From the NCBI RefSeq assembly GCF_003086295.3, contig NC_092045.1, positions 24,742,890 through 24,806,889 on the forward strand: DNA of 64,000 nt. Reading direction: 5' to 3'. Below the pieces are notes generated by a model, which saw only the letters and a program-made list of their open reading frames with translations, did no database searches and was not told the origin of the DNA. The stretch's first letter is position 1, and every line of letters begins with the position of its first letter. Made by a program: the position numbers and the translations under genes. Positions 18,522 through 52,457 of this stretch are shown here, piece by piece. Origin of the DNA: Arachis hypogaea. Taxonomy: Eukaryota; Streptophyta; Magnoliopsida; Fabales; Fabaceae.

Positions 18522-18559
18522 CAACACCAAACTTAAATTGTTGCTTGTCCCCAAGCAAC
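18522..18559 (-). promoter_or_regulatory. Hairpin plus AAGTTTGGTGTTG box at the D 3' LTR boundary
   Basis: On the minus strand an 8-bp perfect stem GTTGCTTG/CAAGCAAC (18559-18552 and 18547-18540) closes a GGGA loop. It is followed by AATTTAAGTTTGGTGTTG directly abutting the LTR start. This is where the polypurine tract that primes plus-strand DNA should be, yet the box is not purine-rich. The same arrangement occurs in E and G and is repeated upstream of ORF2. Confidence 0.85.
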
Positions 18560-19491
18560 TGAAAATCAAAATAGGATAAAAAGAAGAGAATATACTATAG
18601 ACTCCAAAATATCAAGGAAACATAGCTCCAATTAGATGAGCGGGACTAGTAGCTTTTTGCCTCCGAACAGTTTTGGCATCTCACTCTATCCTTTGAGGTT
18701 CAGAATGATTGGCATCTATAAGAACTCAGAACTCAGATAGTGTTATTGATTCTCTTAGTTGAGCATAATGATTCTTGAACATAGCTAGTGTATGAGTCTT
18801 GGCTGTGGCCCAAAGCACTCTGTCTTCCAGTATTACCACCGGATACATTCATGCCACAGACACATAATTGGGTGAACCTTTTCAGATTGTGACTCAGCTT
18901 TGCTAAAGTCCCCAATTAGAGGTGTCCAGGGTTCTTAAGCACACTCTTGTTGCCTTGAATCACAACTTTATTTCTTTCTTTTTCTTTTTCTTTTCTTCTT
19001 CTCTTTTCTTTTTTTTTCGAATTTTTTTTTTGTATCCACTGCTTTTTCTTGCTTCAAGAATCAGTCTAATGATTTTTAGATCCTCAATAACAGTTCTCTT
19101 TTTCCTCCCTCTTTCAAGAGCCAACAATTTTTTTAACATTCTCAAAACAACAAATTCAAGAGACATATGCACTGTTCAAGCATTCATTCAGAAAGCAAAA
19201 AGTATTGTCACCACATCAAACTAATTCAACTAGTTTCAATGATAAATTTTGAAATCCTGTACTTCTTGTTCTTTTGTGATTAAAGCATTTTTCATTTAAG
19301 AGAGGTGATGGATTCATAGGACATTCATATCTTTAAGGCATAAAATTTCAATTTTATTAATTATGAATTAAAACAAGACTCAAAAAAATAGATATAAGAT
19401 GAAACTAAAAAAAACGAAAAATAAAAACAAAACAAAGGAAAAAAACGCAAACATAGGCTCCTAATGATAGAGGTTTTCACAGAGTTAGGAC
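18560..19491 (-). other. Element D 3' region with internal purine tract
   Basis: No gene is seen. The minus strand carries a long purine run (complement of 18968-19018). Matching text lies in E at 34265-35133, including the purine run at about 34660-34730. Frames in this stretch are low-complexity shadows. Confidence 0.7.
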
Positions 19492-20604
19492 TCAACAACC
19501 TTGATATTGAGAAGTGGATGCTCCCTCAGCTTGAGAGGAGAACTTTTGGCGTTTCAATTCTTGGAGTTCACTCCCCTGCTTCTCTTGTTCCTTTAGCAAT
19601 TTGCAGAGCATGCAGTTCTGATTCTACTGTTCTTCCTTCAGTTGCTCCATAGTCTCTTGCAACTTGGTAATAGATGCTTCCAGGCTGGTCCAGTAGTCAA
19701 TTCTTGGGAATTCAGGGAGGAATTCCTGCGCCCTCCTCTTGATAGAGTTGTCTTGCACTTGTCCTTCCATTGACTTCTTGGTGATTGGGTGTTCAATGGG
19801 TATGAACTCATCTACTCCCATCTTCACCCCAGCCTCTTTACAGAGCAAGGAGATCAAGCTTGGGTACGCCAATTTGGCTTCAGTGGAATTCTTATTTGCA
19901 ATTGTGTAGATCTCACAAGCAATCACATGATGAACCTCCACTTCTTTTCCAAGCATAATGCAATGAATCATCACTGCTCTCTTGATGGTGACCTCAGAAC
20001 GGTTGCTAGTGGGCAATATGGAACGCCCAATAAAGTCTAGCCACCCTCTTGCAATTGGCTTGAGGTCTCTCCTCTTGAGTTGGTTTGGGACACCCTTTGA
20101 ATTGGTTATCCACTTAGTCCCAGGGAGGCATATGTCCTCTAGAACTTGATCCAACCCTTTATCTACTCTCACCATCCTCCTATTGAAGGAGTCAGGATCA
20201 TCTTGCAGTTGAGGTAGTTTGAAGATTTCTCTTATTTTGTCCAGATGGAAGTACATAACTTTCCCTCTGACCATGGTTCTGTAGGTATGGTAAGCAGTTC
20301 CAGTCATTCTCTGCTTATCTGTTAGCCACAGATTAGAGTAGAATTCCTGAACCATGTTCCTTCCAACCTTTATTTCAGGATTGGTCAGAACTTCCCATCC
20401 TCTGTTTCGAATTTGCTCTTGGATCTCCGGATATTCATCTTCTTTCAGATCAAATTTAACTTCCGGGATCACTGACCTCAGACCCATTATTTTGTGATAA
20501 TGGTCCTCATGTTCTTTGGTTAAGAACTTCTCTTGATTCCAAAGATTCTTTGGAGTAGTCTCTTTCCTTCCTCTTGAGTTGGTTTGTTTTCCCTTAGGAG
20601 CCAT
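19492..20604 (-). pseudogene. Element D second ORF (putative plant transposon protein family), one nonsense codon
   Basis: I choose the ATG at 20604-20602 (MAPKGKQT) because the leader box ends just upstream and E starts its homologous ORF with MASKAG. The frame is open to a TAG at about 19624-19626 and then continues in frame to TGA at 19492-19494. Conserved blocks shared with E are IPEVKFDLKEDEYPEI, RGWEVLTNP, MVRGKVMYF and LKPIARGWLDFI followed by PTSNRSEVTI. The tail is charged and should form a coiled coil. By memory it fits the Pfam family annotated as putative plant transposon protein. It occupies the place where Athila elements may have an env-like ORF, but I see no signal peptide or membrane segment. 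Its function is unknown. Confidence 0.75.
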
Positions 20605-20642
20605 GATCTTGATGAATCTTGGCTTAGTGATCACGGAAAAGC

Positions 20643-20680
20643 ACACCAAACTTAGAGGTTTTGCTTGTCCTCAAGCAAAA
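20643..20680 (-). promoter_or_regulatory. Hairpin plus AAGTTTGGTGTG box upstream of D ORF2
   Basis: On the minus strand TTTTGCTTG (20680-20672), loop AGGA, CAAGCAAAA (20667-20659), a perfect 9-bp stem, then CCTCTAAGTTTGGTGTGC. It lies 39 bases before the ORF2 start and is the internal counterpart of 18522-18559. Confidence 0.85.
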
Positions 20681-21024
20681 AGAGAAGAAAGAGGAGAAGA
20701 GAGAGAGAAGAGGAAGAGGAAATTCGAATGGTGTGGTGGAAAGAGGAAGCCAAACACGAATTTATAAGGTGAGGGGGAGAGTTTTTTCGAAAAAAAAGAG
20801 AGATTTGAAAGGAGATTTGAGAAGATATGGAAAGAAATTGAGAAAAGGGTGAGTTTTTGAAGAAGATTTGGGATTAATTTGAAATAGATTTGAAGAATGG
20901 TTTTGATTTGTGAAGATTTGAAGGTGAATGATGAAAGGTTGAAGTGCATTTATGTAGAAGAGTATGGGTAAAAAGAGGAAAGTTTGAAAAAATTTGAGTT
21001 GAAAACAAAAATGTGGTTCCCCCA

Positions 21025-21335
21025 CCTTTCTGGCGTTAAACGCCCAGAATGGCACTCATTCTGGCGTTTAACCCCCATATGGCACCCCTTTTGGGCGTTT
21101 AACGCCCAGCCAGGTGCCCTGGCTGGCGTTAAACGCCAGAAAACCTTCATTACTGGGCGTTTTTCAAAACGCCCAGGATGCTGCACACCTGGCGTTAAAC
21201 GCCCAGAATGGTGCCCATTCTGGCGTTTAACGCCCAAAATGGTACCATTCCTGGCGTTAAACGCCCAGAATGGTACCCATTCTGGCGTTTAACGCCCAAG
21301 ATGCCCCTTACTGGCGTTTTTTCGCCAGTAAGCTC
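21025..21335. repeat. Array of about ten GGCGTTAAACGCC hairpins in D between pol and ORF2
   Basis: Near-palindromic 13-mers (GGCGTTAAACGCC or GGCGTTTAACGCC) recur every 25-35 bp. They are separated by variants of CAGAATGGTRCCCATTCTGG, itself partly self-complementary. One has a longer arm pair (ACTGGGCGTTTTTC then AAAACGCCCAGG, near 21153). The strands alternate, so long fold-back structures are possible. The overlapping frames on both strands are shadows. E has an array at the same relative place. Confidence 0.9.
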
Positions 21336-21493
21336 ATTTTCTCTGCTTTTTGAGCTGAATCCTTCTGTAACTCTGTGAATTCCTTCATTTTTGATACTTG
21401 CCTCTGTAAGAACAATTCTTATAACCTCCTAATGACTGGGTTGCCTCCCAGCAAGCGCTTCTTTACTGTCTTTAGCTGGACCTTCACTGAGAA

Positions 21494-22003
21494 TTACTCA
21501 AGTCTCAGTTTTGAGCATTCCTGCTCAAAATTTCCTTCAAGATAATGCTTGATTCTCTGTCCATTAACAATGAACTTTTTATCAGAATCAATATCCTGAA
21601 GCTCAACATATCCATATGGTGACACTCCTGTAATCACATACGGACCCCTCCAACGGGATTTGAGTTTTCCTGGAAACAGTCTGAGCCTAGAGTTGAACAG
21701 CAGAACTTTTTGTCCTGGCTCAAAGACTCTGGTTGACAACTTCTTGTCATGCCATTTCTTTGCCTTTTCCTTATAAATTTTTGCATTTTCAAAGGCATTG
21801 AGTCTGAACTCTTCTAGCTCATTTAGCTGGAGCAGTCTTTTTTCACCAGCTAACTGTGCATCCATGTTTAGGAATCTGGTTGCCCAGTAGGCTTTATGTT
21901 CCAGTTCCACAGGCAAATGACAGGCCTTCCCATACACCAGTTGGTATGGAGAGGTTCCTATAGGAGTCTTGAATGCTGTTCTGTATGCCCACAGAGCATC
22001 ATC
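21494..22003 (-). pseudogene. pol: Element D integrase C-terminal part
   Basis: It continues in the same frame after a TAG at 22004-22006 (SLDD expected from A, which reads TTG there). It covers [30 protein letters not shown] and the C-terminal domain with [26 protein letters not shown] text. This region binds DNA and completes the integrase. It is intact except for the stop that separates it from the core. Confidence 0.9.
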
Positions 22004-23818
22004 CTAGCTCTTTGCCCAATCCTTTCTTCGGGCCATCACAGTCCGTTCCAGGATTCTTTTTAGTTCTCTGTTAGAGACCTCAGCTTGCCCATTTGTCTGT
22101 GGATGATACGGAGTTGCCACTTTGTGGCTAATTCCATATCTAACCATAGCAAGGTGTAGCTGTTTATTGCAGAAATAAGTGCCCCCGTCACTGATTAGCA
22201 CTCTGGGAACGCCAAACCTGCTGAAAATGTTTTTCTGGAGGAATTTCAGTACGGTCTTGGTATCATTGGCGGGTGTAGCAATCGCTTCTACCCACTTAGA
22301 CACATAGTCCACTGCCACCAGAATGTAAGTGTTTGAGTATGATGGTGGGAATGGCCCCATGAAGTCAATTCCCCATACATCAAACAGTTCTATCTCTAAT
22401 ATCCCTTGTTGAGGCATGGCATATCCATGAGGCAGGTTACCAGCTCTTTGGTAACTGTCACAGTTACGCACAAACTCTCGGGAATCTTTATAGAGAGTAG
22501 GCCAGTAGAAGCCACATTGGAGGACTTTAGTGGCTGTTCGCTCACTTCCAAAATGTCCTCCATACTGTGATCCATGGCAATGCCATAGGATCCTTTGTGC
22601 TTCTTCTCTGGGTACACACCTGCGGATCACTCCGTCAGCACATCTCTTAAAGAGATATGGTTCATCCCAGAGGTAGTACTTGGCATCTGAAATTAATTTC
22701 TTTCTCTGCACGTGGCTGTACTCCTTGGGAATGAACCTCACAGCTTTAAAATTTGCAATATCTGCAAACCATGGAGCTTCCTGAATGGCAAATAGTTGCT
22801 CATCTGGGAAAGTCTCAGAAATCTCAGTAGAAGGGAGGGACGCCCCAACTACTGGTTCTATTCGGGACAGATGATCAGCTACTTGGTTCTCTGTCCCTTT
22901 TCTGTCTCTTATTTCTATATCAAACTCTTGCAGAAGCAACACCCATCTGATGAGCCTGGGTTTTGAATCCTGCTTTGTGAGTAGATATTTAAGAGCAGCA
23001 TGGTCAGTGTACACAACCACTTTGGATCCCACTAGATAGGATCTAAACTTGTCAATGGCATAGACCACTGCAAGTAACTCTTTTTCTGTGGTTGTGTAGT
23101 TCTTCTGTGCGTCATTTAGAACACGGCTGGCATAGTAAATGACGTGCAGAAGCTTGTTATGCCTCTGTCCCAACACTGCACCAATGGCATGGTCACTGGC
23201 ATCACACATTAATTCAAATGGCAATGTCCAATCTGGTGCAGAGATGACTGGTGCTGTGACCAGCTTAGCTTTCAGGGTCTCAAATGCCTGTAGACACTGT
23301 GTGTTAAACACAAATGGTGTGTCAGCAGCTAACAGGTTACTCAGAGGTTTTGCAATTTTTGAAAAATCCTTTATAAACCTTCTGTAGAATCCTGCATGCC
23401 CCAGAAAGCTTCTGATTGCCTTAACATTGGCAGGTGGTGGTAATTTTTCAATTACCTCCACCTTTGCCTTATCCACCTCTATTCCCTTGTTTGAAATTTT
23501 GTGCCCAAGGACAATTCCTTCAGTCACCATAAAGTGACATTTCTCCCAGTTTAAAACTAGGTTAGTCTCTTGGCATCTTTTCAAGACAAGTGCTAGGTGA
23601 TTAAGACAGGAGTTAAATGAGTCTCCATATACTGAAAAGTCATCCATGAAGACTTCCAGAAATTTCTCTACCATATCTGAGAAGATAGAGAGCATGCACC
23701 TCTGAAAGGTTGCAGGTGCATTGCACAGACCGAAAGGCATCCTCCTGTAGGCAAACACGCCAGAAGGACAAGTGAATGCTGTTTTCTCTTGGTCCTGAGG
23801 ATCTACTGCAATTTGGTT
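22004..23818 (-). pseudogene. pol: Element D RT (second half), RNase H and integrase core
   Basis: The frame is open from the TAA at 23819-23821 to the TAG at 22004-22006 and stays in frame with gag. RT motifs are [13 protein letters not shown] and the catalytic box [10 protein letters not shown] (near 23640). RNase H shows [27 protein letters not shown] and [12 protein letters not shown]. Integrase shows [26 protein letters not shown] (near 22360), [10 protein letters not shown] and [10 protein letters not shown], so all catalytic Asp/Asp/Glu residues are present. The last zinc ligand Cys (present in A as CDSCQR) is Tyr here, codon complement of 22451-22453, one G-to-A change. RT and RNase H residues look intact. 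Confidence 0.93.
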
Positions 23819-26509
23819 TTAGCCTGAATAGCCATCCAAAAAGCAGTAATAATCATGGCCAGCTAGTCTTTCTAGCATTTGGTCTATGAATGGTAAAGGA
23901 AAATGATCCTTTCTGGTGGCTGTATTGAGCCTTCTGTAGTCAATACACATGCGCCACCCTGTGACTGTCCTTGTAGGAACTAGTTCATTTTTTTCATTAT
24001 GAACCACTGTCATGCCTCCCTTTTTGGGAACAACTTGGACAGGGCTCACCCAGGGGCTATCAGAAATAGGATAAATAATCCCAGCCTCTAGTAATTTAGT
24101 GACCTCTTTCTGCACCACCTCCTTCATGGCAGGATTTAGCCTCCTCTGTGGTTGAACCACTGGTTTGGCATTATCCTCCAATAGGATCTTGTGCATGCAT
24201 CTAGCTGGGCTAATGCCCTTAAGATCACTTATGGACCACCCAAGAGCTGTCTTGTGTGTCCTTAGCACTTGAATCAGTGCTTCTTCTTCCTGTGAATTTA
24301 AAGCAGAGCTTATAATCACTGGAAAAGTGTCACTCTCTCCCAGAAATGCATATTTCAGGGATGGTGGTAGTGGTTTGAGTTCAGGCTTGGGAGGCTTATC
24401 CTCCTCCTGAGGAATTTTCGAAAATTCCTTTGCCTCCTCTAGTTCTTCTTGATCAGGCTGAGCATCTTTGAAGATGTCCTCAAGCTCTGATTCTAGGCTT
24501 TCAGCCATATTGATCTCTTCTACCAGAGAGTCAATAATGTCAGCGCCCATGCAGTCATTTGGTGTGTCTGGATGCTGCATGGCTTTTACAGCATTCAACT
24601 TGAACTCATCCTCATTGACTCTTAAGGTTACTTCCCCTTTTTGTACATCAATGAGAGTTCGTCCAGTTGCTAGGAAAGGTCTTCCTAGAATGAGAGTTGC
24701 ACTCTTGTGCTCTTCCATTTCCAGCACCACAAAGTCAGTTGGAAAGGCAAATGGCCCAACCTTGACAATCATGTCCTCAATTATGCCTGATGGGTATTTA
24801 ATGGAGCCATCAGCAAGTTGGAGGCATATCCGGGTTGGTTTGACTTCTCCAGTCAACCCAAGCTTTCTGATAGTGGATGTAGGTATTAGATTGATGCTTG
24901 CTCCAAGATCACATAGAGCTGTCTTGGTGCAAGAACCTTCTAATGTGCATGGTATCATAAAGCTCCCTGGATCTTGAAGCTTTTCTGGTAAGCTCTTTAA
25001 TATGACTGCACTGCATTCTTCAGTTAGAAACACTTTTTCAGTTTCTCTCCAATCCTTCTTATGACTTAAGATTTCTTTCATAAACTTAGCATAAGAAGGT
25101 ATTTGCTCAAGTGCCTCTGCAAACGGAATCTTTATTTCAAGAGTCCTTAGATAATCTGCAAAGCGGGCAAATTGCTTATCCTGCTCCGCTTGGCGGAGTT
25201 TTTGAGGATAAGGCATCTTGGCTTTATATTCTTCAACCTTAGATGCTGCAGGTTTATTCCTTACAGAAGTGGTTGAAGAAGCCTTGTTAGGGGGGTTACT
25301 GTCAGCACTCTCAAGTGTCTGATTCTCCCTAGGCGTTTGAACGCCAGGATTGGGAGGAAATTGGGCGTTTAACGCCAACTTTTCCCCCTTTTCTGGCGTT
25401 TGAACGCCAGAACTGGGCAAGGAATGGGCGTTTAACGCTAGATTTCCTTCCCTTTCTGGCGTTTGAACGCCAATAATATTCCTCTCTGGGCTCTTACTGT
25501 CCTCAGAGGGATTTTGAACAGTGGTTTGGTTGTCCTCTGTCAATTGTTCCTTGTTTGGCTTTTTACTCTTTTGAGCAGTGTTATTCAGGGTCTTCCCACT
25601 CTTCAATTGAACTGCTTGACATTCCTCTGTTATCTGTTTAGATAATTGCTGTTTTGCTTGATTCAACTGCAGTTCTATGCTCTTGTTAGCAACTTTAGTT
25701 TCATAGAGCATCTCTTTAAAGTCTGCTAACTGTTCTGTCATCAGGAGCAATTGTTGATTAAGCTCAATTATCTGTTCTTGAAGACTAGGGTCAGTGACTA
25801 CTGCCATGACTTCCTCTTTTGGAGAGAACTCATTGCTAGAGTACAAATATTGGTTTCTAGCAACAGTGTCTATAAGCTCTTGAGCTTCTTCAATTGTCTT
25901 CCTCATGTGTATAGATCCACCAGCTGAGTGGTCTAAAGACATCCGAGCTTTTTCTGTGAGCCCATAGTAGAAAATGTCTAACTGTACCCACTCTGAAAAC
26001 ATTTCAGAGGGACATTTTCTTAGCATACCTCTATACCTCTCCCAGGCATTATAAAGAGATTCATTATCCTCTTGCTTAAAGCCTTGGATGTCCAGCCTTA
26101 GCTGTGTCATCCTCTTAGGAGGGTAAAAATGATTCAGGAATTTGTCTGACAACTGTTTCCATGTCTTTATGCTTGCTGTAGGTTGGTTATTCAACCACCT
26201 TTTTGCTTGATCTTTTACAGCAAATGGAAACAGTAATAGTCTGTAGACATCCTGATCTACCTCTTTATCATGTACTGTGTCAGCAATTTGCAAAAACTGT
26301 GCCAGAAACTCAGTAGGTTCTTCCTGTGGAAGACCGGAATACTGGCAATTTTGCTGCACTATGATAATGAGTTGAGGATTTAGTTCAAAGCTGCTTGCTT
26401 TGATGGGAGGTGTACAGATGCTACTCCCATATGCAGCTGTAATGGGGTTAGCATATGACCCCAGAGTCCTTTTGGACTGATTGATCCCACTTAAGTCCAT
26501 AATGGACAA
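23819..26509 (-). CDS. gag-pro-pol: Element D Gag, protease and start of RT (896 codons)
   Basis: A start at 26509 gives MSIMDLSG; the ATG three codons later (MDLSG) matches A and may be the real start. The Gag core spans about residues 40-210 (ELNPQLIIIVQQN, TEFLAQFLQIADT, LLFPFAVKDQAKRWL, YNAWERYRGML). A Gln-rich linker follows. Residues about 350-410 hold alternating GVQTP and LALNA motifs made by the palindromic module. The protease active site CDLGASINLIP is near residue 530 and ILGRPFLATGR is about 65 residues later. RT starts near residue 790 and WRMCIDYRRLN is near 850. The frame ends in a TAA after FLDGYSG, where A reads Tyr. No zinc knuckle is seen, as expected for Athila. Confidence 0.93.
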   Translation of the reverse strand: MSIMDLSGINQSKRTLGSYANPITAAYGSSICTPPIKASSFELNPQLIIIVQQNCQYSGLPQEEPTEFLAQFLQIADTVHDKEVDQDVYRLLLFPFAVKDQAKRWLNNQPTASIKTWKQLSDKFLNHFYPPKRMTQLRLDIQGFKQEDNESLYNAWERYRGMLRKCPSEMFSEWVQLDIFYYGLTEKARMSLDHSAGGSIHMRKTIEEAQELIDTVARNQYLYSSNEFSPKEEVMAVVTDPSLQEQIIELNQQLLLMTEQLADFKEMLYETKVANKSIELQLNQAKQQLSKQITEECQAVQLKSGKTLNNTAQKSKKPNKEQLTEDNQTTVQNPSEDSKSPERNIIGVQTPEREGNLALNAHSLPSSGVQTPEKGEKLALNAQFPPNPGVQTPRENQTLESADSNPPNKASSTTSVRNKPAASKVEEYKAKMPYPQKLRQAEQDKQFARFADYLRTLEIKIPFAEALEQIPSYAKFMKEILSHKKDWRETEKVFLTEECSAVILKSLPEKLQDPGSFMIPCTLEGSCTKTALCDLGASINLIPTSTIRKLGLTGEVKPTRICLQLADGSIKYPSGIIEDMIVKVGPFAFPTDFVVLEMEEHKSATLILGRPFLATGRTLIDVQKGEVTLRVNEDEFKLNAVKAMQHPDTPNDCMGADIIDSLVEEINMAESLESELEDIFKDAQPDQEELEEAKEFSKIPQEEDKPPKPELKPLPPSLKYAFLGESDTFPVIISSALNSQEEEALIQVLRTHKTALGWSISDLKGISPARCMHKILLEDNAKPVVQPQRRLNPAMKEVVQKEVTKLLEAGIIYPISDSPWVSPVQVVPKKGGMTVVHNEKNELVPTRTVTGWRMCIDYRRLNTATRKDHFPLPFIDQMLERLAGHDYYCFLDGYSG
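25325..25475. repeat. Palindromic module inside the D gag coding sequence
   Basis: Five near-palindromes alternate GGCGTTTGAACGCC and GGGCGTTTAACGCC (last one decayed to GGGCGTTTAACGCT) about 28-35 bp apart. On the coding strand they give GVQTP in one frame phase and LALNA in the other. Confidence 0.9.
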
Positions 26510-27042
26510 AAGGGAAATGATAATGATTGCAAAGAGATAAATTTTGTTTTCTTTTTTTTTTTTGAATTAAACGAAAAAAAATAAAATAAAACAAAAGAAA
26601 ATTAAAGTAAAAATTCGAAAATAAAAAAAAATAAGATCAAAGCAAATTGAAAACTGAATCAATTAGTTAATTAGAAAGATTTTGAAAACAGCAATTAAAA
26701 AGATATGATTGAAAAATTTTTATGAAAAAGATTTGATTTTGAAAAGAGGAAAGAGAAAAACACAAAAAGACACCAAACTTAAAATTTTTAGAAAATCAAA
26801 CACAAAATTTTCGAAAATTTTTAAGGGAAAAACACAAAGAGGACACCAAACTTAGAATTTTTATGAATCAAAAAGGGACTAAGAACATGCAAAATCGAAA
26901 ATTAAAAGAAAAACAAAAGCATGCAATGGACACCAAACTTAGAATATGAAACTAGACTTAACTAAAAGACTCTAAACCGACAAAAATAAAACAGTCCTAA
27001 TCTAAGCAACAAGATAAGCCGTCAGTTGTCCAAACTCAACAA
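26510..27042 (-). other. Element D leader
   Basis: An A-rich non-coding leader between primer binding site and gag. It has three copies of ACCAAACTTA (near 26771, 26846 and 26932; TAAGTTTGGT on the transcribed strand). No ORF. Confidence 0.75.
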
Positions 27043-28656: not shown

Positions 28657-30199
28657 TTGTTCGAGTTTGGACAACTGACGGTTCATCTTGTTGCTTAGAT
28701 TAGGTATTTTTCTTCAGAGTTCTTAAGAATGAATTCTAGTGTTTCAAGGTGATGTTCTTATCATCACCAAAGCTGATTGATTTTCATCAATTTAGCTCTT
28801 GAATGCAATGTCCTGCCGAAGCTTGGCTAGCCATGTCTAATTCCTTTAGACTGAAGCTTTAGACTAACATTGCATGATTCCTGGAATTCTCATTAAGAAT
28901 TTTGATATCTTTATTTTCTTTTCCACTTAATTTTCGAAAAATCCAAAAAAAAATTACAAAATCATAAAAATAAAAAATATTTTATGTTTCTTATTGAGAC
29001 ACTAGTCTCATTTTAAGTTTGGTGTCAATTGCATGTTTCCGTTCTTCTTGCATTTTTCATGTGTCTTCAGTGATCTTCAAGTTGTTCTTGATGATTTACT
29101 TGCTCTGGTCTTTAAATTCTCTTGTCTTGTGTGTTTTGTTGTTTCTCATATGCATTCTCAACTTGTTAGTGTCAATAGTATACAAACTTTTAAGTTTGGT
29201 GTTTTGCATGCATTATTTATTTGATTTCAGTTGCATTTTGATTATTCCTCATTTTTAAAAAATTCAAAAAAATTTTTAATTTGTGTCTTTTCAAGTCAAT
29301 AATACAGAGAATTGAAGATTCAGAACATACTGCAGAGGAATTACACAGAAAAAGCTGGGCGTTCAAAACGCCCAGTGAAGAAGGAAAACTGGCGTTTAAA
29401 CGCCAGCCAGGGTGCCTGGCTGGGCGTTTAACGCCCAAAAGGATAGTGTTTTGGGTGTTAAACGCTAGAATGTGCACCATTCTGGGTGTTTAACGCCAGG
29501 ATGGCACAAGAGGGAAGATTCTGTTTTTAATTCAAATTTTTTTTCAAGTTTTCAAAATTTTTCAAAATCAAATCTTTTTCAAATCAAATCTTTTCAATCA
29601 AATATTTTTCAAAATCAATTTCTTTCCATTTTCAAAAAATACTTGCTAACAATTAATGATTTGATTCAACATTTCAAGTATGTTGCCTTTTCTGTTGAGA
29701 AAGGTTTAATGTTTGAATCATATCTTTTCTTGTTAGCCAAGTCATTAATTTTCAAAATCAAATCTTTTTAAATTGTTTTTCAAATCATATCTTCTCAATC
29801 ATGTCTTTTTAAAACTATATCTTTTTCAATCATATCTTCTTTAATCACATCTTTTTCAAAATAGTTTTCAATCATATCTAGTTGATTTCTAATTTCAAAA
29901 TCTTTTTCAAAAATCACTTGATTTCTTTTCCACTCTTAGTTTTCGAAAATCAATTAGTGTTTTTCAAAATGTTTTTTTTAAATCTCTTACTTAATTTTCG
30001 AAAATTTCTTCCCCTCTTCTCACATCCTTCTATTTATGGACCAACACTCCTCCTTAATGCACAATTCGAACTCCATCTTTCTTGATAATTTCGAATTCTT
30101 CTACTTCTTCCTTCTATTTTTCTTTTCCTCTGACACCTCAAGGAATCTCTATACTGTGACATAGAGGATTCCATATTTTCTTGTTCTCTTCTCTTTCAT
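28657..30199 (+). other. Element E leader with palindrome array
   Basis: A T-rich leader of 1.5 kb without a convincing gene. TAAGTTTGGTGT boxes lie near 29012 and 29190. A palindrome array spans 29358-29500 (GGGCGTTCAAAACGCCC, GGCGTTTAAACGCC, GGGCGTTTAACGCCC and two decayed copies). After the array come many ATCTTTTTCAA-type A/T stretches (29540-30000). The leader is much longer than that of D, mainly by the array and the A/T stretch. Confidence 0.75.
29358..29500. repeat. Palindrome array in the E leader
   Basis: Five near-palindromes of the GGCGTTTAAACGCC type lie in about 140 bp. The D leader has no such array. Confidence 0.88.
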
Positions 30200-33065: not shown

Positions 33066-33103
33066 TTTGCTCGAGGACGAGCAAACCTTTTAAGTTTGGT
33101 GTG
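33066..33103 (+). promoter_or_regulatory. Hairpin plus TTTTAAGTTTGGTGTGG box upstream of E ORF2
   Basis: TTTGCTCG (33066-33073), loop AGGA, CGAGCAAA (33078-33085), a perfect 8-bp stem, then CCTTTTAAGTTTGGTGTGG. Compared with D, a T:A pair of the stem is replaced by C:G on both sides. Confidence 0.87.
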
Positions 33104-33139
33104 GTAAAAGCATTGCTTTTTGTTTTTCCATAACCATTT

Positions 33140-34264
33140 ATGGCATCCAAGGCCGGAGAAACCTCTAGAAAGAGGAAAGGGAAGGCAAAAGCTTCCACCT
33201 CCGAGTCATGGGAGATGGAGAGATTCATCTCAAGGGTGCATCAAGACCACTTCTATGAAGTTGTGGCCATGAAGAAGGTGATCCCCGAGGTCCCTTTCAA
33301 ACTCAACAAGAGTGAATATCCGGAGATCCGACATGAGATCCGAAGAAGAGGTTGGGAAGTTCTTACCAACCCCATTCAACAAGTTGGAATCTTAATGGTT
33401 CAATAGTTCTATGCCAATGCATGGATCACCAAGAACCATGATCAAAGTGTGAACCCGGACCCAAAGAATTGGCCTACAATGGTTCGGGGGAAATACTTGG
33501 ATTTTAGTTCGGAAAATGTAAGGTTGGCATTCAACTTGCCCATGATGCAAGGAGATGAACACCCTTACACTAGAAGGGTCAACTTTGATCAAAGGTTGGA
33601 CCAAGTCCTCATAGACATTTGTGAAGAGGGCGCTCAATGGAACAGAGATTCAAGAGGAAAGCCGGTTCAACTGAGAAGGCATGACCTCAAGCCCATGGCT
33701 AGAGGATGGTTGGAGTTTATCCAATGCTCAATCATTCCGACTAGCAACCGGTCCGAAGTTACTATAGACCGGGCTATCATGATTCATAGCATCATGATTG
33801 GAGAGGAAGTAGAAGTTCATGAGGTTATATCCCAAGAACTTTATAAGGTGGCGGACAAGTCCTCTACCTTGGCAAGGTTAGCCTTTCCTCATCTCATTTG
33901 TCACCTCTGTTATTCAGTTGGAGTTGACATAGAGGGAGACATCCTCATTGATGAGGACAAGCCCATCACTAAGAAAAGGATGGAGCAAACAAGAGACCCC
34001 TCTCATCATGAAATCCCTGAGATACCTCAAGGGATGCACTTTCCTCCTCAAAACTATTGGGAGCAAATCAATACCTCCCTAGGATAATTGAGTTCCAACA
34101 TGGGACAACTAAGGGTGGAGCACCAAGAACATTCCATCCTCCTCCATGAAATTAGAGAAGATCAAAGAATCATGAGAAAGGAGCAACAAAGGCAAGGAAG
34201 AGACATTGAGGAGCTCAAGCACTCCATAAGATCTTCAAGAGGAAGAACAAGCCGCCATCACTAA
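33140..34264 (+). pseudogene. Element E second ORF (homolog of D ORF2)
   Basis: It starts MASKAGETSRKRKGK, a basic, Ser/Lys-rich start. A TAG at 33404-33406 and a TAA at 34085-34087 interrupt one continuous frame. Shared blocks with D ORF2 are VIPEV, EYPEIRHEIRRRGWEVLTNP, MVRGKYLDF, LKPMARGWLEFI and IIPTSNRSEVTI. After the TAA a charged, Gln/Glu-rich tail with heptads ends at TAA 34262-34264. It belongs to the same putative plant transposon protein family (from memory). Its retention in a pol-less element suggests a role in the shared life cycle, perhaps in cis; this is inference. Confidence 0.78.
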
Positions 34265-35133: not shown

Positions 35134-35171
35134 GTTGCTTGGGGACAAGCAACAATTTAAGTTTGGTGTTG
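35134..35171 (+). promoter_or_regulatory. Hairpin plus AAGTTTGGTGTTG box at the E 3' LTR boundary
   Basis: GTTGCTTG (35134-35141), loop GGGA, CAAGCAAC (35146-35153), an 8-bp perfect stem, then AATTTAAGTTTGGTGTTG directly against the LTR. Confidence 0.87.
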
Positions 35172-36853
35172 TGATTAGCGGATAATTTATACGCTTTTTG
35201 GCATTGTTTTTAGTATGTTTTAGTTAGTTTTTAGTATATTTTTATTAGTTTTTAGTTAAAATTCACTTTTATGGACTTTACTATGAGTTTGTGTGTTTTT
35301 CTATGATTTCAGGTATTTTCTGGCTGAAATTGAGGGACCTGAGCAAAAATCTGATTCAGAGGCTGAAAAGGACTGCAGATGTTGTTGGATTCTGACCTCC
35401 CTGCACTCGAAGTATATTTTCTGGAGCTACAGAAGCCCAATTGGCGCGCTCTCAACGGCGTTGGAAAGTAGACATCCTGGGCTTTCCAGCAATATATAAT
35501 AGTTCATACTTTGCCCGAGATTTGATGGCCCAAACTGGCGTTCCAAATCAGCTCAAAACTGCCCGGCGTTAAACGCCGGAACTGGCACAAGAATGGGAGT
35601 TAAACGCCCAAACTGGCACAAAAGCTGGCGTTTAACTCCAAGAGAAGTCTCTACACGAAAATGCTTTAATGCTCAGCCCAAGCACACACCAAGTGGGCCC
35701 GGAAGTGGATTTTTATGTCATTTACTCATTTCTGTAAACCCTAGGCTACTAGTTCTCTACAAATAGGACCTTTTGCTACTGTATTTTGATCTTTTGATCA
35801 TTTTCGATCTTAGGATCATCTTTTGATCACTTTAGATCTTAGATCAAATCGGGGTAGCTATCTTTGATCAGTTTTATGCTATCTTAGATCATGGGGCTGG
35901 CCATTCGGCCATGCCTAGACCTTGTTCTTATGTATTTTCAACGGTGGAGTTTCTACACACCATAGATTAAGGTGTGGAGCTCTGCTGTACCTCGAGTATT
36001 AATGCAATTACTATTGTTCTTCTATTCAATTCAGCTTATTCTTGTTCTAAGATATTTATTTGAACTCAAGAGCATGATGAATGTGATGATTATGTGACAC
36101 TCATCATCATTCTCACTTATGAACGAGTGCCTGACAACCACTTCTGTTCTACAAGCAAACAAGCCTTGAATGTTTATCTCTTGGATCCCTTGATCGGAAT
36201 CTTCGTGGTATAAGCTAGAATTGATGGCGGCATTCAAGAGAATCTGGAAAGTCTAAACGTTGTATGTGGTATTCTGAGTAGGATTCAATGATTGAATGAC
36301 TGTGACGAGCTTCAAACTCCTGAAGGTTGGGCGTTAGTGACAAACGCAAAAGAATCACTAGATTCTATTCCAACCTGATTGAGAACCGACAGATGATTAG
36401 CCGTGCCGTGACAGGGTTTGTAGAACATTTTCACTGAGAGGATGGGAGGTAGCCACTGACAACGGTGAAACCCTACATATAGCTTGCCATGGAAAGGAGT
36501 AAGAAGGATTGGATGAAGACAGTAGGAAAGCAGAGAGACGGAAGGGACAAAGCATCTCCATTCGCTTATCTGAAATTCTCACCAATGAATTACATAAGTA
36601 TCTCTATCTTTATGCTTTATTCATATATCATCCATAACCATTTGAATCTTCCTGACTAAGATTTACAAGGTGACCATAGCTTGCTTCATACCAACAATCT
36701 CCGTGGGATCGACCCTTACTCGCGTAAGGTTTATTACTTGGAAAACCCAGTGCACTTGTTGGTTAGTTGTGCGAAGTTGTGATAAAATGTTGAGATTGCA
36801 ATTGAGCGTACCATGTTGATGGCGCCATTGATGATCACAATTTACGTGCACCA
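35172..36853 (+). repeat. 3' LTR of element E (1682 bp)
   Basis: It starts TGATTAGCGG and ends TGCACCA, followed by the duplication GTCAC (36854-36858). It carries the same palindromes (about 35560-35640) and GATC cluster (about 35788-35890) as the 5' LTR. Confidence 0.95.
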
Positions 36854-44048: not shown

Positions 44049-44057
44049 TACGTAAAT

Positions 44058-44467
44058 TTAGCATTCAAAGGATATTCTTTACTAATCTTATTTTTCAGTT
44101 ATTTAACCCCCTTGTCTTACCAAGTTCCATATTAGTCAGATTAGTAAACATCTATATATTTAGATGCAATAATAAATTGTTGTTTTTAACAAGTGGTTTT
44201 GGAGGTTGGTTAATTGGTCACATTTTTTTCATAAAATGGATTGAATTTGTCTGGATACAACAAAATAATGTTATTAAATCTAATGAACGCATTCGCTCTA
44301 AGAAGTCCATTTTATCAGAATTTTGAACTTCAATGGCTCAACTCTTTAGTGTTTTTTTATTTGTTACGTGTTTATACTATTTAGACCGAACACCCTTGCC
44401 CTTTTTTTTTAAAGAAGAAATGTTCAAAAAGTAAAGAAAGCTGTGAACAAAGACACAAAGTGAAGCG
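44058..44467 (+). pseudogene. ycf1: Fragment of plastid ycf1 (Tic214)
   Basis: A clean frame from 44063 encodes [52 protein letters not shown] and VWIQQNN, hydrophobic segments of the N-terminal membrane part of Tic214, a component of the inner-envelope protein import machinery. A TGA near 44323 and later stops end it; SMAQLFSVFLFVTCLYYLDR follows. It is a transferred fragment with no expression expected. ycf1 and rrn16 are several kb apart in plastid genomes, so the block was joined from separate pieces. Confidence 0.9.
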
Positions 44468-45720: not shown

Positions 45721-46219
45721 CAAGGATGGATGACTCCCATAATTAATTACCTCAAAATAGAAGCACTCCCCACAGAGGAAAAGGAGGCAAAGAGGTTGAA
45801 ACGGGAGATACAATACTACACTATCATAAACAATACTCTATACAAAAGAGGGATTTCAATACCATTGTTAAAATGCGTGCCAACTTCCAACACAAAGGAA
45901 GTTCTAGAAGAAGTACACAGTAGCATTTGTGGCAATCACCTCGGAGCACAAGCACTTAACCAAAAAAGTACTCCGGGCAGGATTTTATTGGCCAACTCTA
46001 CAAAAAGAAGCCACAGAGTTCTTAAAGACATGTCCACCATGTCAAAAACATGCCAACTTTCACATTGCCCCGCTAGAAGAACTCATCAGTGTGACCTCAC
46101 CTTTGCCATTCGCAAAATGGGAACTCAACCTTCTTAGACCCTTCCCTCAAGGATCGGGACAAGTTAAATTCCTCATAGTATGGGTAGACTATTTCACAAA
46201 GTAGATTGAGGTAGAACCC
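45721..46219 (+). pseudogene. pol: Element H integrase, first part
   Basis: Two frames (45730-46137 and 45929-46204) because of a shift near 45950. The zinc region shows GNHLGAQAL and CPPCQKHAN, then FAKWELNLLRPFPQG. The first catalytic Asp should be in WELNLL (B has WEVDLL), so it is Asn here. The TSD AACCC (46215-46219) and G follow. Confidence 0.85.
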
Positions 46220-47770
46220 TTATAAACCCCATTTGTAGGGTTTATCTTGTGCTTAATTTAGGGGATTTTGTAACCTTTTACCCACATTTATTCAATGAAA
46301 TAGCATGGTTTTATAACTTCTCCCTTAATTGTGCTTAAGAGTGAAAACATGCTTTTTAGGACTTAAAATAGCTAAATCTAATTCACCTTGATTTCATTAG
46401 ATGCCTTGATATGTTTGTTAAGTGATTTAAGGTTTAGGAGGCAAAGATTGGATCAAGGGAATGAAGAAAGAAAGCATGAAAAGTTGGAGAACTCATGAAG
46501 AAATGAAAGAACTGGAAAGCTGTCAAGCCGACCTCTTCGCACTTCAACGACCATAACTTGAGATACAGAGGTTCAAATGATGCGGTTCCAGTTGGGTTGG
46601 AAAGCTAACATCTGGGGCTTCGAAACGATATAAGATTCCCTATAGTTGCTGCACGTATGGTGACGCGTACGCGCACTATACGCGTACGCGTCGTTGTGCC
46701 ACCTGGTTCACTTAATGCAATCCGTGGGCCAGCGAATTCTCAAGCCTTGTGGGCCCAATCCAACTCATTTCTGATGCTATTTAAGCCAAGGATTGAAGAG
46801 GGATGAGGCATCTAGTTACCATTAGTTTAGTTTAGCATAGTTTAGTTTTAGAAGTAGTTTCTAGAGAGAGAAGCTCTCATTTCTCTCTAGAATTAGGATT
46901 AGGATTAGGATTAGTTCTTAGATCTAGGTTTTAATCTTTGCTTTCTTCTACCTCTACCTTTCAATTCTTTGTTGTTACATTCATCTTCCTCTATTCTTTT
47001 GTTGTAACTTCCTTTATGTTGTTCTTATACTTTGATTGTAGATCCACTTTTGTTCCTTCCTTTCTCTTTCAATTCAATTCAAGGTAAATCATAATAATTG
47101 TGTTCCTTTTGATTTGTGTTGTTAATTCCTTTCAATAATTGTTGTTAGATTTTGTTCTTGTTGTTGATTTACTATGTTTTCCTTTTATGCCTTCCAAGTG
47201 TTTGATGAAATGCTTGGTTGGATTTTAGAGTAGGATTTTATACTCTTGGCTTGGAAAGGTAACTTAAGACCTCTTGAGTTACTAATGTCCAAGTGATTGA
47301 TGATTGGGAGCCATTGACTCTAGTTCTCACTAATTGAATTAGTGGAGAGTTAGGACTTATGGACTAGGATTGATATAGCTCATTTGACTTTCCTTTACTT
47401 CTAGTTAGAGGATGATTTAATGAGATTAATCCTTGCCAATTCTCATATTGTGGTTAGTGATTAGGATAGAGATCCTTGACCCCCAACCCTTGCCAAGACC
47501 TTTTTAGCCATTAGTTTACTTTCTTGCCATTTATCTTTCATATTTCTTATCAAAACCCCAAAAAAATAACTCATAACCAATAGCAAGATACTTTATTGTA
47601 ATTCCTAGGGAGAACGACCCGAGGTTTGAATACTTCGGTTTATAAAATTAGGGGTTTGTTACTTGTGACAAACAATCTTTTGTATGAAAGGATTTTTGAT
47701 TGGTTTAGAAACTATACTTGCAACGAGACTTCAATAGTGAAATTCTATACCGTCAAAAATCCAATCATCA
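46220..47770 (+). repeat. 5' LTR of element G (1551 bp)
   Basis: It starts TTATAAACCCC where the 3' LTR has TGATAAACCCC, and ends AATCATCA. It contains a perfect 12-bp inverted repeat GACGCGTACGCG / CGCGTACGCGTC (46662-46673 and 46681-46692, 7-bp spacer). A TATA-like CTATTTAAG lies near 46779, and four TTAGGA repeats lie near 46895. Confidence 0.95.
46662..46692. repeat. ACGCGTACGCG inverted repeat in G U3
   Basis: Perfect 12-bp arms around CACTATA in the 5' LTR. In the 3' LTR (52900-52930) two CpG sites have decayed to TpG/CpA (ACGTGC, GCATAC), breaking the symmetry, as expected from methylcytosine deamination. Confidence 0.88.
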
Positions 47771-47773
47771 AAA

Positions 47774-47791
47774 TGGCGCCGTTGCCGGGGA
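47774..47791 (+). promoter_or_regulatory. Primer binding site of element G (tRNA-Asp)
   Basis: TGGCGCCGTTGCCGGGGA, a perfect tRNA-Asp complement, three bases after the LTR end. Confidence 0.95.
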
Positions 47792-47939
47792 ATTGCAATG
47801 GTGTTGTGTTATTGGTTATTGTATATATGTGAATATTGTGAATAGCTTGCTTTTTAGATTGCTTGTTAGTTTTTGCTAGTCTTAGTATTTTGTTTCATTA
47901 TTTCTTATTAGTTTTTGTTTCTTATTTTCTCTTGCTACC

Positions 47940-49502
47940 ATGAATTCTCATTTTGGCTATAAGTGTGATTATAATTATGTTGTAGGTGATGAGAGCTACA
48001 ATGAGGATGTGTATCAAGGATGGGACAATCAAAGGTGGGAGGAGCCATATGCATATGATCAATCTTCATGGCAATAACCTCCACCAATGCACTATGAAGA
48101 AGAGCCATTCTATGATGCATACCAATCCAATGGCTATGGTGAATCTCCTTGTGATTTTCAAGAACCACCACCATATGCCTATGAATCATCTCCTCAACAT
48201 GATCATCAACTATACTCACAAGCCTATTTTCAACAAACACCTCCATATGACCATAATGCTTATCTACCATACCAACCACCTTTTGAACCATATGAGCCCT
48301 ACATGGAATCACCATTCCAAGATTACTACTTCCAAGAGCCACCTCAATACACACCACCACCTTACCAAGAAGAATCACCTTCCTATAATAAACCCTTTCT
48401 CCAAGGCAATGAACCCTCTTATCCACTCCAATCCTCAATGGATGAAATTCTTAGCCTTATACTTCAAGGACGAGGAGAAATGCAAAGGGAGACACTAGAA
48501 TTTATGGCTACCTTAACCAAGGTAGTAAGCATTTTAGCCTCCCAATGCTCGAGCACTCAAATCACTCCCATGGTCACATGTGGAGAATCTAAAGAGGAAC
48601 ATAGCATGAAGGAGAGATTGGAAACTCCGACGGAAAATGAGGAATGCCACTTTGTATTAGAACAATTGGAGAAGCCTATGATTATTGAAGAAAAGGAAGA
48701 AATGGTTGAAGACTTAGGAGATGCGGAACCTCCATGGGAACCTAGAGTTATAGAAAACTCCTCCAAGAAGATTGAAGTTGATGTTGAGGAGGAATGTGCA
48801 CAACCTCCAAGGCATATCCCATATGAAGACTTGGAAGGAGTGAAGCAAGAATTGAGTTTCCTTAGTGATGAAGATCATGCATCCAACCTTCTTGGTGAAG
48901 AATCCTTTGAATTTGAAGAACCTTCTCCTAGTGAATTTGAAAGTGATATGGAGGTGGAGGCAATCAAGGAAGAAAATAAGGGAGTGGAGCTTACTAGCAC
49001 ATTGGTAATACCTTTCCCCAAGCCACCACCATCCACTCTCTCATTCAAGTGGGTAAATTCCTTATACTCAAGCTTTATTATTCCCCTTGAATATGGTTTG
49101 CTTGAAACGGATGGTCAACTTAGATATATTTGTGGCTTTAAGAGTAAAAAGGAGATGGTTAGTGGTTGGAAGCATCATTCTAGGTTCATTATGGTCACAT
49201 GTCCAAAGCTTGATAGCAAAGGTTGGTGTATAACTAGAGTACATGGGTCTAGAAGGATGTTTGGTCACTTTGTTCAGAATTCACCTTGCTCACCACCCAC
49301 ATGGATTAATGATAATCAACTTGGAGATGGGTGTGAAGACAAAATATGGGATCCGGGAACACATGAGGATCAACATTGGGAGCCCATGGTTTGTGAAGAA
49401 CTCCATCAAAGCTTGGAGATATTAATCTTGAATGATGGAGCTTATTGGAAGTCCAAGCATTGGTGGAAGTTCCAAGATGAGTACAAGCACAAGCCACCTT
49501 GA
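47940..49502 (+). pseudogene. Element G Pro/Tyr/Gln-rich ORF (one nonsense codon)
   Basis: The ATG at 47940 gives MNSHFGYKCDYNY. A TAA at 48075-48077 lies 46 codons in, and the frame is then open to TGA at 49500-49502 (520 codons in all). The first 120 residues are rich in Pro, Tyr and Gln (EPPPYAYESS, QQTPPYDHNAYLPYQ). The middle is acidic (Glu-rich, IEEKEEMVEDLGDAEPPWEP). The last 170 residues have Trp/His/Cys-rich text (FKWVNSLYSS, SGWKHHSRFIMVTCPKLD). I do not recognise a Gag core, zinc knuckle or protease. By position it replaces gag-pol; it may be a Gag-like or captured protein. Its function is unknown. Confidence 0.7.
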
Positions 49503-50916
49503 GAGAAGCTCCCCATAAGTCCAACTTAAGGACAATAAACAAAAGTGCTAGGTGGGAGACACCCCACCATGGTAAAATCCTTTCATTTTCTCTTTTGTAC
49601 ATATTGGTAGAATTAGTTTAATTTCATGTTTTGTTTAGTTAGTTGAGTTTAATTGGTAGTTTAGTATGTTAAATAAGGTTTTATGGTGTTTTGGTAGCTG
49701 TTTGAAGGTTTGGAATGCTTGGATTGGTGCAAAAACATAGAAAAATTTTGAAAAACAGAGCACCATCCACGCGTTCGCGCACTGCGCGCGTACGCGTGCA
49801 TCAAGCGTTTTCGACCATCCACGCGAGCGCACCATGCGTGCGTACGCATGGATTGAGAAGTTCCACATTCCATCCATTTTCCAGAGAGTTATGCCTACGC
49901 CACGCCAACGTTGTGCCTTTGGCACAACCACCACTTGCGCGCACGCGCACATAACGCGTACGCGCCACTCTCGAAATACACCATCCGTGCGCGCGCGGCA
50001 TACGCGCGTACGCGTGGATTTCCTTCCTTCACCACATTTCTTTTCTTCTCCTCTTTCCATTTCTTTCCTTCTCCTTTCTTCTTCCCTTCTTCTACCCCTC
50101 ATCCAACACTTCCAAACACCATGGATAACCATTTATTTTAGTTAGTTAATTAATTAGTTAGTTAGTTTGTTAGATAGCTTTAGTTTAGTTTTCATTTTAT
50201 TTTCTCCATTTTCATTATAAGTGTTGGCTTATTGATCTTGTTTACTACACATTGTTGCCTCTTATTGCCTAAATGCTATTTTAGCATGAATGTTTTTAGA
50301 TAATCTTTGTTGGATTCTATGATTGAGGTTATCTTTTGCTACTTGGTTTTGAGTTCTTCATGCTTACCTTTTAAGAATACCAAGTGATGAGAATTGCCTT
50401 CGAGCTTGTAACTCTTCTTGAATTACATGATTTGGCCACCATGTGATTTGAGCCTTATTTTGTGATTAGGCGACCTCTTGATGATGGATGTTGAGCATTT
50501 ACCTTAATGCATTGTGTTCATGATTATATGCATCCATATGTGTTTGGCTTGAATGCTTTCATGCTTCTTTAATGCTTGTTTTACCTTACAAGTTTACTTA
50601 AAGTATCTCAAGCACACTAGAATAAGTGAAGTGCATGCTTCTTTTGTGACATAACTTTTAGGCTAATGTGTGTTCTAAACCGCGCAATTTAGAATTCACA
50701 CACTTATTCGTCATTCATGTCACACTAATTCACTCACTCATTTCTAGTGAATTTACCTCATTCCAACAATGTATGTTTCCTTGCTTTTATATCTTCTCAT
50801 CTTATGGTGTTATATTTTTGTTTTTCATGAACAATGCACCACAAGCACACATGGAAGCGGAAGAAAGAACACGCAGCAATCTGGAGATTCGCCGTACCCC
50901 CTTGCTCATCTTTGAG
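49503..50916 (+). other. Element G 3' region, first half, with CpG-rich module
   Basis: A CpG-dense module at about 49765-50020 has CGCGTACGCGTGG, CACGCGAGCGC and related palindromes, the same type as the G LTR inverted repeat. The frames on both strands there are shadows. TTAGTTAG repeats lie at 50140-50175. The rest is T-rich without a gene. Confidence 0.75.
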
Positions 50917-50955
50917 TGCACCGAGGACGGTGCAAACTTTTAAGTGTGGGGAGGT
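50917..50955 (+). promoter_or_regulatory. Internal hairpin plus TTTTAAGTGTGGGGAGGT box in G
   Basis: TGCACCG (50917-50923), loop AGGA, CGGTGCA (50928-50934), a perfect 7-bp stem, then AACTTTTAAGTGTGGGGAGGT. It is 1.5 kb before the 3' LTR and repeats the box found at its border. Confidence 0.87.
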
Positions 50956-52420
50956 CGTCCGACCGATCGGCGATTTTGGGTGACAAGTTTCTAATTCCAA
51001 CACTTTTGCATTTCATTCTAGGATTTTAGGATTTTTACTTGCATTTTCTTAATTTTGCATATATATACAAAATAAGCTTAGTCAAAATAATGAAATTTTT
51101 CAAGGATTTCTATCTATAGGGCACCAATTGATTTGAGTGAAAACTTTTCATTAAACTTGCTTGAATTATATATCTTGTGGATCATGTTTTTGAGCTAAGA
51201 ACACAAGCAAGTGAGTTTTGAGCCTAATGGTGTGGTTACATCTTATAACCACTTATTTTTTCTTCTTGTGTGCATTATTCTCTTTCTATGATTGTAATCT
51301 TTGATTTGTTTGATTCTTTATGTCCATTATTTTGTGTATTCATGCATTTATATGATTGAGGCCATCATTTCATTAGCTCACTTACCCAAAAAGCCTTACC
51401 TTTTATCTTCCTTTGTTAGCCAATTTTGAGCCTACGATTAACCCACTTGTTCTTAATTTTAGCACATTACAAGCCTAAAGCGGAAAACAATAAATGTCCT
51501 TAATTTGGATCTTTGATTAGCTTAGGCTAGTGTGTGTGAGTATCATTCAAGTGTGGGAATCTTGGGACATTGGGTGAATAAAAAGGTAGTTTTGTATTTT
51601 TATTGAAATTATTGGGAATTGGGTACATACTCCTGTATTGATCAAATGTAAAACCTTATGCATTGATGCTCTTGTATATAGAAAAAAAATGAGAAAAACA
51701 AAAGAAAAAAGAAAAAAAATAATATGGAAAAGAAAAAGAAAAAAATAGAAAAAGAAAGAAAAAAAGAAGAAAAAAAAGAAATAAAAAGGGGACAAAATGC
51801 CCCAAAGCAAAGTGTAGCTCAATAAAATCAATGCATAAGTGTTGTGAAATGAAAAGGGATACATAAGCATGTGAAAAAGTGAAAAATGGGTAGTTAGGTT
51901 AGAACTTAATTGTATTGGATGTCATAGGTTAGGTGGAAAGTTTAAGCTTATCAAAGATTCAAATTTCAAGCTCACTTAACCATATATGCATCATACCTTG
52001 ACCCTAGCCCCATTACAACCAAAGAAAAGACCTCATGATACTTGTATGCATGCATGAAATATATGTTGATTGTTAGAAGAAGAACAAATCTTGGAAAACA
52101 TGATCAGCGGAGAATTGAGAGAATCAACCCTAAACACTTGAGCGAATAGAGTGCAAATACATCCGGTGAGGGTTTGATGCTCAATTACATGTTTCCACCT
52201 ATGATCATCTCTTCTCACGCAAGTTTGTAAAAATATTTAATAACTCAATTCAACTTTGGAATAGACTTGCTAGTCCTTCGCCCTTGTGCATATATGCTTC
52301 TTGGGAATTGATTTATTTTGACTAAGCAAATTGCATTCATTTAGATAGTTGCATATAGGTTGATTGCATTTAGTTAGTTTCCATTGAATAAACACCATAC
52401 GCTTACTTCATTCTTGGTTT
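50956..52420 (+). other. Element G 3' region, second half, with purine tract
   Basis: No ORF; in D and E the matching place holds ORF2. A long purine run (about 51677-51790) lies roughly 0.7 kb before the 3' LTR, as a similar run does in D and E. Confidence 0.7.
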
Positions 52421-52457
52421 AAGCATGGGGACATGCTTGGTTTAAGTGTGGGGAGGT
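52421..52457 (+). promoter_or_regulatory. Hairpin plus polypurine tract at the G 3' LTR border
   Basis: AAGCATG (52421-52427), loop GGGA, CATGCTT (52432-52438), a perfect 7-bp stem, then GGTTTAAGTGTGGGGAGGT up to the LTR. GTGGGGAGG is a good polypurine primer for plus-strand synthesis. Confidence 0.9.

Follow-up and report, generated by a model that had tools for sequence, protein, structure and literature searches.

The window analysed here, 64,000 nucleotides (nt) of the genome of the peanut Arachis hypogaea (NC_092045.1, positions 24,742,890 to 24,806,889), contains three long terminal repeat (LTR) retrotransposons, D, E and G, in which a short hairpin followed by a characteristic box occurs twice: at the border of the 3' LTR and at an internal site. 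We propose that hairpin and box together probably constitute the plus-strand primer module of an Athila-type Ty3/gypsy retrotransposon, in which the hairpin would most likely help reverse transcriptase (RT)/RNase H, or Gag, to choose and cut the primers. Comparison of the copies from a wider sample supports the view that the hairpin is kept by compensatory change.

Two hairpins in each of three elements

All six hairpins of the window are perfect Watson-Crick stems of 7-9 bp, as an earlier note on this DNA had claimed, and the box begins 2-4 nt past the stem. In D, which lies on the minus strand, the border hairpin (18540..18559, 8 bp, loop GGGA) is followed by an 18-nt terminal box/polypurine tract (PPT) at 18522..18539 that abuts the 3' LTR, and the internal hairpin (20659..20680, 9 bp, loop AGGA) by the box TCTAAGTTTGGTGT, which together with two preceding bases occupies 20643..20658. 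In E, on the plus strand, the internal hairpin (33066..33085, 8 bp, loop AGGA) precedes the internal box/PPT at 33086..33104, and the border hairpin (35134..35153, 8 bp, loop GGGA) an 18-nt terminal box/PPT at 35154..35171, which again abuts the 3' LTR. The plus-strand element G has its internal hairpin at 50917..50934 (7 bp, loop AGGA) with the box/PPT at 50935..50955, and its border hairpin at 52421..52438 (7 bp, loop GGGA) with a 19-nt terminal box/PPT at 52439..52457, abutting the 3' LTR; 17 nt of the internal box/PPT are identical to the border copy, and the likeness stops where the LTR starts in the latter. When both strands of the window were scanned for an RGGA loop on a stem of at least 6 bp and a box (no more than one mismatch), precisely these six hairpins were returned, compared to an average of 0.05 per window in 40 first-order shuffles; with an exact box, five were observed and none in 400 shuffled windows.

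The border hairpins of D and E are identical over all 20 nt, so that the window holds five distinct hairpins rather than six. The T:A to C:G double change reported between D and E is indeed present, between their internal copies. Within G, the internal and border stems differ at six of seven pairs and share only the closing pair, while the 17-nt box is identical, a pattern that gene conversion would not give.

Covariation in a wider sample

We extended the comparison to 20 peanut stretches of 10 kb, each from a different contig and at a fixed position (30 Mb), amounting to 200 kb, or 264 kb with the window, as well as to the plant contaminant contigs L082 and L084. The latter come from a search of prokaryote assemblies by pol alignment, which returned three loci (L082, L083 and L084), all of them plant contamination as judged from their content. 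L082 and L083 represent one plant element (99.6% over 9 kb) lying inside two bacterial genome assemblies. All three loci carry an AGGA hairpin followed by TTTAAGTTGGGGGG, and shuffled L082 and L084 yielded 0 and 0.0003 such sites (3000 shuffles each).

We listed LTR starts that have an AAGT box before them, whether or not a hairpin was present, and found the hairpin at 12 of 12 borders (nine in the stretches, three in the window), with 7-8 bp in 11 cases and 5 bp in L109; a four-nucleotide-loop stem of at least 7 bp occurs at 1.1% of random window sites. The LTR pattern overlooked a thirteenth border, in L115 (loop AGAA, 7 bp). The distance from the foot of the hairpin to the LTR is 18 nt in all eight D/E-type borders, 19 in G and L105, 20 in L111 and 23 in L109, where the stem is damaged. 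Internal copies are more often damaged, with one mismatch each in L097 and L098, a broken closing pair in L115 and a changed loop in the minus-strand copy at 6829 of L105. The association of AGGA with internal and of GGGA with border copies, also proposed in the earlier note, holds within the window and breaks down beyond it, where borders carry AGGA (L098, L105, L109, L111) or AGAA (L115) and internal copies may carry AGGG (L108, L113).

The final alignment (A4) comprises 26 copies in 19 distinct rows, 13 border and 13 internal, with damaged copies kept and L083 omitted as the same element as L082. The internal copies were taken from 24 box-first candidates, 11 of which were dropped (10 coding-repeat rows and one leader row); the L105 copy at 6829 (loop AAGA) was found later and is not included. 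A hairpin at 7531 of L105 was dropped as a chance occurrence, its box being two mismatches off in a coding-like stretch, and one at 5407 of L106 likewise. In A4, 91.4% of the cells are paired compared to 60.5% after shuffling, both-side changes number 44 compared to 17.4, and the covariation score is 0.735 compared to 0.215; none of 500 shuffles was as high in any of these three measures, and controls with a slid structure reached at most 43.4% paired. A smaller set of eight copies had already given 92.2% paired compared to 61.2%, and 18 both-side cells compared to 6.7. The loop consists of purines and is mostly RGGA, the closing G-C pair is conserved, the stem is mostly 7-9 bp and otherwise free in sequence, and no G-U pair occurs in its inner five pairs. 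Together with the copies in plant elements found through pol, this covariation bears out the suggestion that the structure is under selection.

A model (R1) built from the eight copies and run on the window and 35 of 88 loci gave nine strong matches, namely its eight sources and L083; the next best match (21.9 bits) was to a leader box. A weak match to the model (21.3 bits) also lies at G002 C46.

A probable role in plus-strand priming, and its alternatives

The border copy had been suggested to lie at the site of plus-strand priming, and the anatomy supports this: at the D, E and G borders the tract abuts the first base of the 3' LTR, and target-site duplications (TSDs) fix the LTR ends of D and G. 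Past the hairpin comes a U-rich box (TTTAAGT) and then a G-rich or G/T-rich tract, which at the border runs up to the first base of the LTR. The box is TYTAAGTTTGGTGT (14 nt) in the D/E type, mostly TTTAAGTGTGGGGAGGT in the G type, and TTTAAGTTGGGGGG in L082 and L084; the tracts are G-rich in the G type, L082 and L084, and read TTTGGTGTTG in the D/E type. Internal and border copies on the same strand, assigned to one element by nearness, form nine pairs separated by 1447-2328 nt, with the internal copy upstream; in eight of them the box variant is closely shared; in L109 it differs at several positions. A shared variant is expected for two sites read by one enzyme, and because the internal copies mostly carry the border variant of their own element, we read them as a second PPT. 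Among the roles that the earlier note had considered for the internal copy, a second priming site is therefore favoured by these sequences. A primer role for both sites also fits the extra PPT of Athila4 and Calypso, for which PMC2829016 cites Wright and Voytas (2002).

The box is far more frequent than the hairpin. In the 264 kb, TYTAAGTTTGGTGT has 57 exact copies (mean 0 in 20 shuffles), of which 27 are in leaders or unassigned, 18 lie in a 33-nt coding repeat, and six each are internal and border copies. The 45 copies that are neither internal nor border all lack a hairpin with this type of loop and a stem of 5 bp or more, which is a new observation. Of the ten primer-binding sites (PBSs) preceded by ACCAAGTTTT (the D/E type), nine are followed by one to three boxes at 117-711 nt; there is none after the tenth (L101, 3861) or after five PBSs of other types. 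The D leader has three hairpin-less boxes (26770..26943, minus strand) at 117, 204 and 277 nt after the PBS, and the E leader two boxes (29012..29202, plus strand) without an RGGA hairpin, at 373 and 550 nt. A further box that lacks this hairpin lies between or near the two sites in G (51547..51557, plus strand, between the internal and border copies), L097, L109, L111 and L115, and L082 has a second box just after pol without such a hairpin. The 33-nt repeat with the 14-nt box was seen in the window (32349-32395) and in L096, L098, L101, L108, L113 and L114; in E it reads SKFGV in frame (frame assigned by hand) near the end of the 31011-32429 open reading frame (ORF).

If hairpin and box form a primer module, both tracts would act as plus-strand primers, the internal one providing a second plus-strand start, and the hairpin would mark which box copies are used. 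The 18-20 nt between the hairpin foot and the LTR suggest that the hairpin may pause RT just after the tract has been copied, placing the RNase H site, 18-20 nt behind, near the tract/LTR junction; a similar spacing, 17-18 bp, separates RT and RNase H in human immunodeficiency virus 1 (HIV-1). Alternatively, the hairpin loop may bind RT, integrase or Gag. A bolder form of the proposal, possible but doubtful in our opinion, makes the hairpin a primer-licensing structure. Of the many nearly identical PPT-like boxes that these elements carry in the leader, the coding repeat, the middle, the internal site and the border, the covarying hairpin upstream would designate two for use by RT/RNase H, so that each genome would have two plus-strand starts, and this in distantly related plants.

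Conservation of the loop points to contact with a protein, which makes binding of Gag a serious rival. According to this alternative, the exposed GGA loop on a stem conserved in structure only would be a packaging signal for Gag/nucleocapsid, and the proximity to the PPT would be incidental. G-rich tetraloops bind retroviral nucleocapsid, the conservation of loop and closing pair with free stem sequence is that of a hairpin read by its loop, and boxes are also present in the 5' leader. However, the leader boxes are among the 45 that lack the hairpin, and the distance to the PPT-like tract is nearly fixed in the hairpins of the window and of the listed borders, for which packaging has no need; we regard a packaging signal as unlikely.

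The internal copies could also act as an expression signal for the downstream ORF2, i.e. a splice acceptor or a site of re-initiation or internal entry. Such a role is suggested by an ORF starting at an ATG 66-68 nt after the loop in six of seven D/E-type internal copies, by the pyrimidine-rich tract upstream of the internal hairpin in D, E, L082 and L084, and by the splice acceptors predicted for env of Athila and BAGY2 in the account of PMC2829016. However, judged by length only, and within 2.4 kb or up to the end of the stretch (which comes early in L097, L082 and L084), six of 13 internal copies (G, L097, L109, L115, L082 and L084) have no downstream ORF longer than 74 aa, and L108 has none longer than 40 aa; moreover, the border copies precede an LTR rather than an ORF. 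As a general role, the translation signal for ORF2 envisaged in the earlier note is therefore very unlikely.

As the inner five pairs are free of G-U, both strands can fold, and RNA and DNA hairpins are not told apart. The structure might accordingly work at the DNA level, with integrase or a host factor recognising a hairpin in the minus-strand cDNA, a cruciform or a plus-strand terminator. We know of no factor that reads such a signal, and the adjacency to the PPT fits the processing of an RNA/DNA hybrid equally well; a DNA-level signal appears improbable to us. A kissing-loop dimer was set aside, as the RGGA loop is not self-complementary.

Besides this ambiguity between RNA and DNA, several observations weigh against a primer module kept by selection. 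The recurrence of the box in leaders is not explained by a pure primer role, the 45 boxes were counted once those adjoining GAGGAC or GAGGGC had been classed as internal and removed, and the D/E-type tracts are G/T-rich rather than polypurine. The two active sites of Ty3 RT are about 13 bp apart in the account of PMC5371799, and not 18-20. Earlier hairpin hits (L109, L111) had contributed to the LTR-start patterns used for the borders, so that the listing was not fully blind, and contig C158 of the L082 assembly, which carries a more distant pol, has no strong R1 match. Among ten copies folded as RNA, the fold predicted for L082 and L084 (stems of 6 and 5 bp) pairs the G tract with upstream pyrimidines instead of forming the hairpin, and fold z-scores are weak for L082 (-0.51), internal D (-0.78) and internal E (-1.45). 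Two of the five measures on A4 did not exceed the shuffles: the number of pairs with both-side changes, which 220 of 500 shuffles reached, and further pair types (153 of 500). Finally, the copies are related and descend from few deep lineages, the D/E-type borders being one family and a GCATG core being common to the G, L105, L109, L111 and L115 borders, and the shuffles do not correct for kinship. One could thus suppose that there is no selection at all, and that the inverted repeats were inherited from few ancestral copies. Nonetheless, about six different stem cores, independent at best, all pair, the two G stems share only the closing pair, and plant elements found through pol alone carry the hairpin; the absence of selection is strongly disfavoured.

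Related systems and the host elements

The earlier note knew of no description of such a structure. As regards the second PPT this has to be amended, since the extra tract of Athila4 and Calypso, which, like ours, is located in Athila-clade elements downstream of pol and ahead of the 3' LTR, is already in print; no hairpin is mentioned for it in the account of PMC2829016, though the original may say more. Our literature search, the scope of which left out most subscription papers, recognised no report of a hairpin at an Athila PPT, and a search of papers for the motif letters gave none with a retrotransposon title among those listed. A parallel is found in the Sireviruses (Ty1/copia): according to PMC2829016, each element has several PPT copies, of which only a particular one bears a structure at a precise position. 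In that account, the structure is an inverted repeat that includes the PPT and has its right arm within the 3' LTR; it has high sequence identity, is absent from the upstream PPTs, and has been proposed to expose the PPT to RNase H. Unlike it, the peanut hairpin lies wholly upstream (both arms precede the LTR in all 12 listed borders), covaries, and recurs at one internal copy. A second plus-strand start inside the element is also provided by the central PPT of HIV-1 and PPT2 of Ty1; to our knowledge, a covarying hairpin is no part of the description of either. These two tracts differ from ours in being located in coding sequence, as described in PMC2829016. Ty3 shares with our elements a Ty3/gypsy PPT adjoining the 3' LTR, but no central PPT has been identified in it according to PMC5371799, and PMC11381356 places the Ty3 PPT itself within a base-paired region whose predicted probability is lower.

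Element D (16991-28597, minus strand, TSD GCCAT) is nested beside the 5' LTR of E. Its 3' LTR (16991..18521, minus strand, first base 18521) and 5' LTR (27067-28597) are 99.5% identical. The gag, protease, RT, RNase H and integrase domains (22004..26509, minus strand) are spread over two ORFs, 23819-26509 and 22004-23758, the pol families being RVT_1, RT_RNaseH, Integrase_H2C2 and rve; the listed protein matches that cover at least 94% of D pol are 62-75% identical and carry no lineage name. The D ORF2 (19624..20604, minus strand) encodes 326 aa from its ATG and contains PF20167, and its named best protein matches are Arachis proteins. Element E (15364-36823, plus strand) has its 5' LTR at 15364-16990 and its 3' LTR at 35172..36823; its ORF2 region (33140..34087, plus strand; PF20167 in 33449-34087) is not one open frame, with 88 aa from the first ATG. 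Element G (about 46221-54010, plus strand, TSD AACCC) has a 5' LTR from about 46221 and a 3' LTR at 52458..54010 (98.7% identical); a single 471-aa ORF of G was scanned and had no Pfam match. In an Rfam scan of the whole window at the gathering score, no match fell on the six hairpin sites; the one match was a borderline snoR71 (30633-30740, minus strand, 40.2 bits at a cutoff of 40) within the gag region of E.

All three elements have the PBS TGGCGCCGTTGCCGGGGA, located 3 nt after the LTR in G and 6 nt in D, which we take to match the 3' end of tRNA-Asp. A tRNA-Asp-type PBS just after the LTR is described for Calypso and Diaspora in PMC1142308. This site does not discriminate the Athila clade, since the Retand-type element F' shares it but for one base. 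An additional archaeal-type RNase H, a mark of the Tat clade according to PMC6317226, was reported at the thresholds used neither for D up to its ORF end nor for the gag-pol of L082, as is expected of the Athila clade; E and G have no pol. F' (41108-59715), which has LTRs of about 545 bp, interrupts the leader of another Athila-like element and has G nested inside it; it is called Retand-type because of an antisense Transposase_28 ORF, a domain present in 23% of Retand elements according to PMC6317226. This one element has no such hairpin, the best four-nucleotide-loop stem in the 55 nt before its 3' LTR being 2 bp.

Viral contigs searched by pol, by patterns and by the extra ORF of L084 yielded no plant element, and their 81 linear loop-plus-box matches, like four further pattern hits, all had stems of 0-2 bp. 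Plasmids searched by pol gave six records at 27-32% identity, among them the distant matches (27-30%) NZ_CP065944 and NZ_CP065945 of Bacillus licheniformis, which are listed as plasmids. No sign of hairpin-encoded peptides was seen at protein ends, in the first 200 residues of 72 proteins or in 192 proteins of a second search. The extra ORF of L084 (1787-2347) lies between pol and the hairpin and matches Viral_NABP (PF05515, 3.5e-8) and Carla_C4 (PF01623), nucleic-acid-binding families of plant RNA viruses; it has 546 relatives, and the named ones among the 120 listed come from Populus, Acer, Xanthoceras and Rhamnella.

How RNase H spares and cuts the correct primer has long been asked of retroviruses and LTR retrotransposons alike. 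A covarying hairpin, at an almost constant 18-20 nt from the cut, that accompanies two box copies and is absent from 45 others with the same 14-nt core would offer natural test and control templates for addressing it, and may serve as a practical landmark for the edge of the 3' LTR and for the internal PPT of Athila-type elements.

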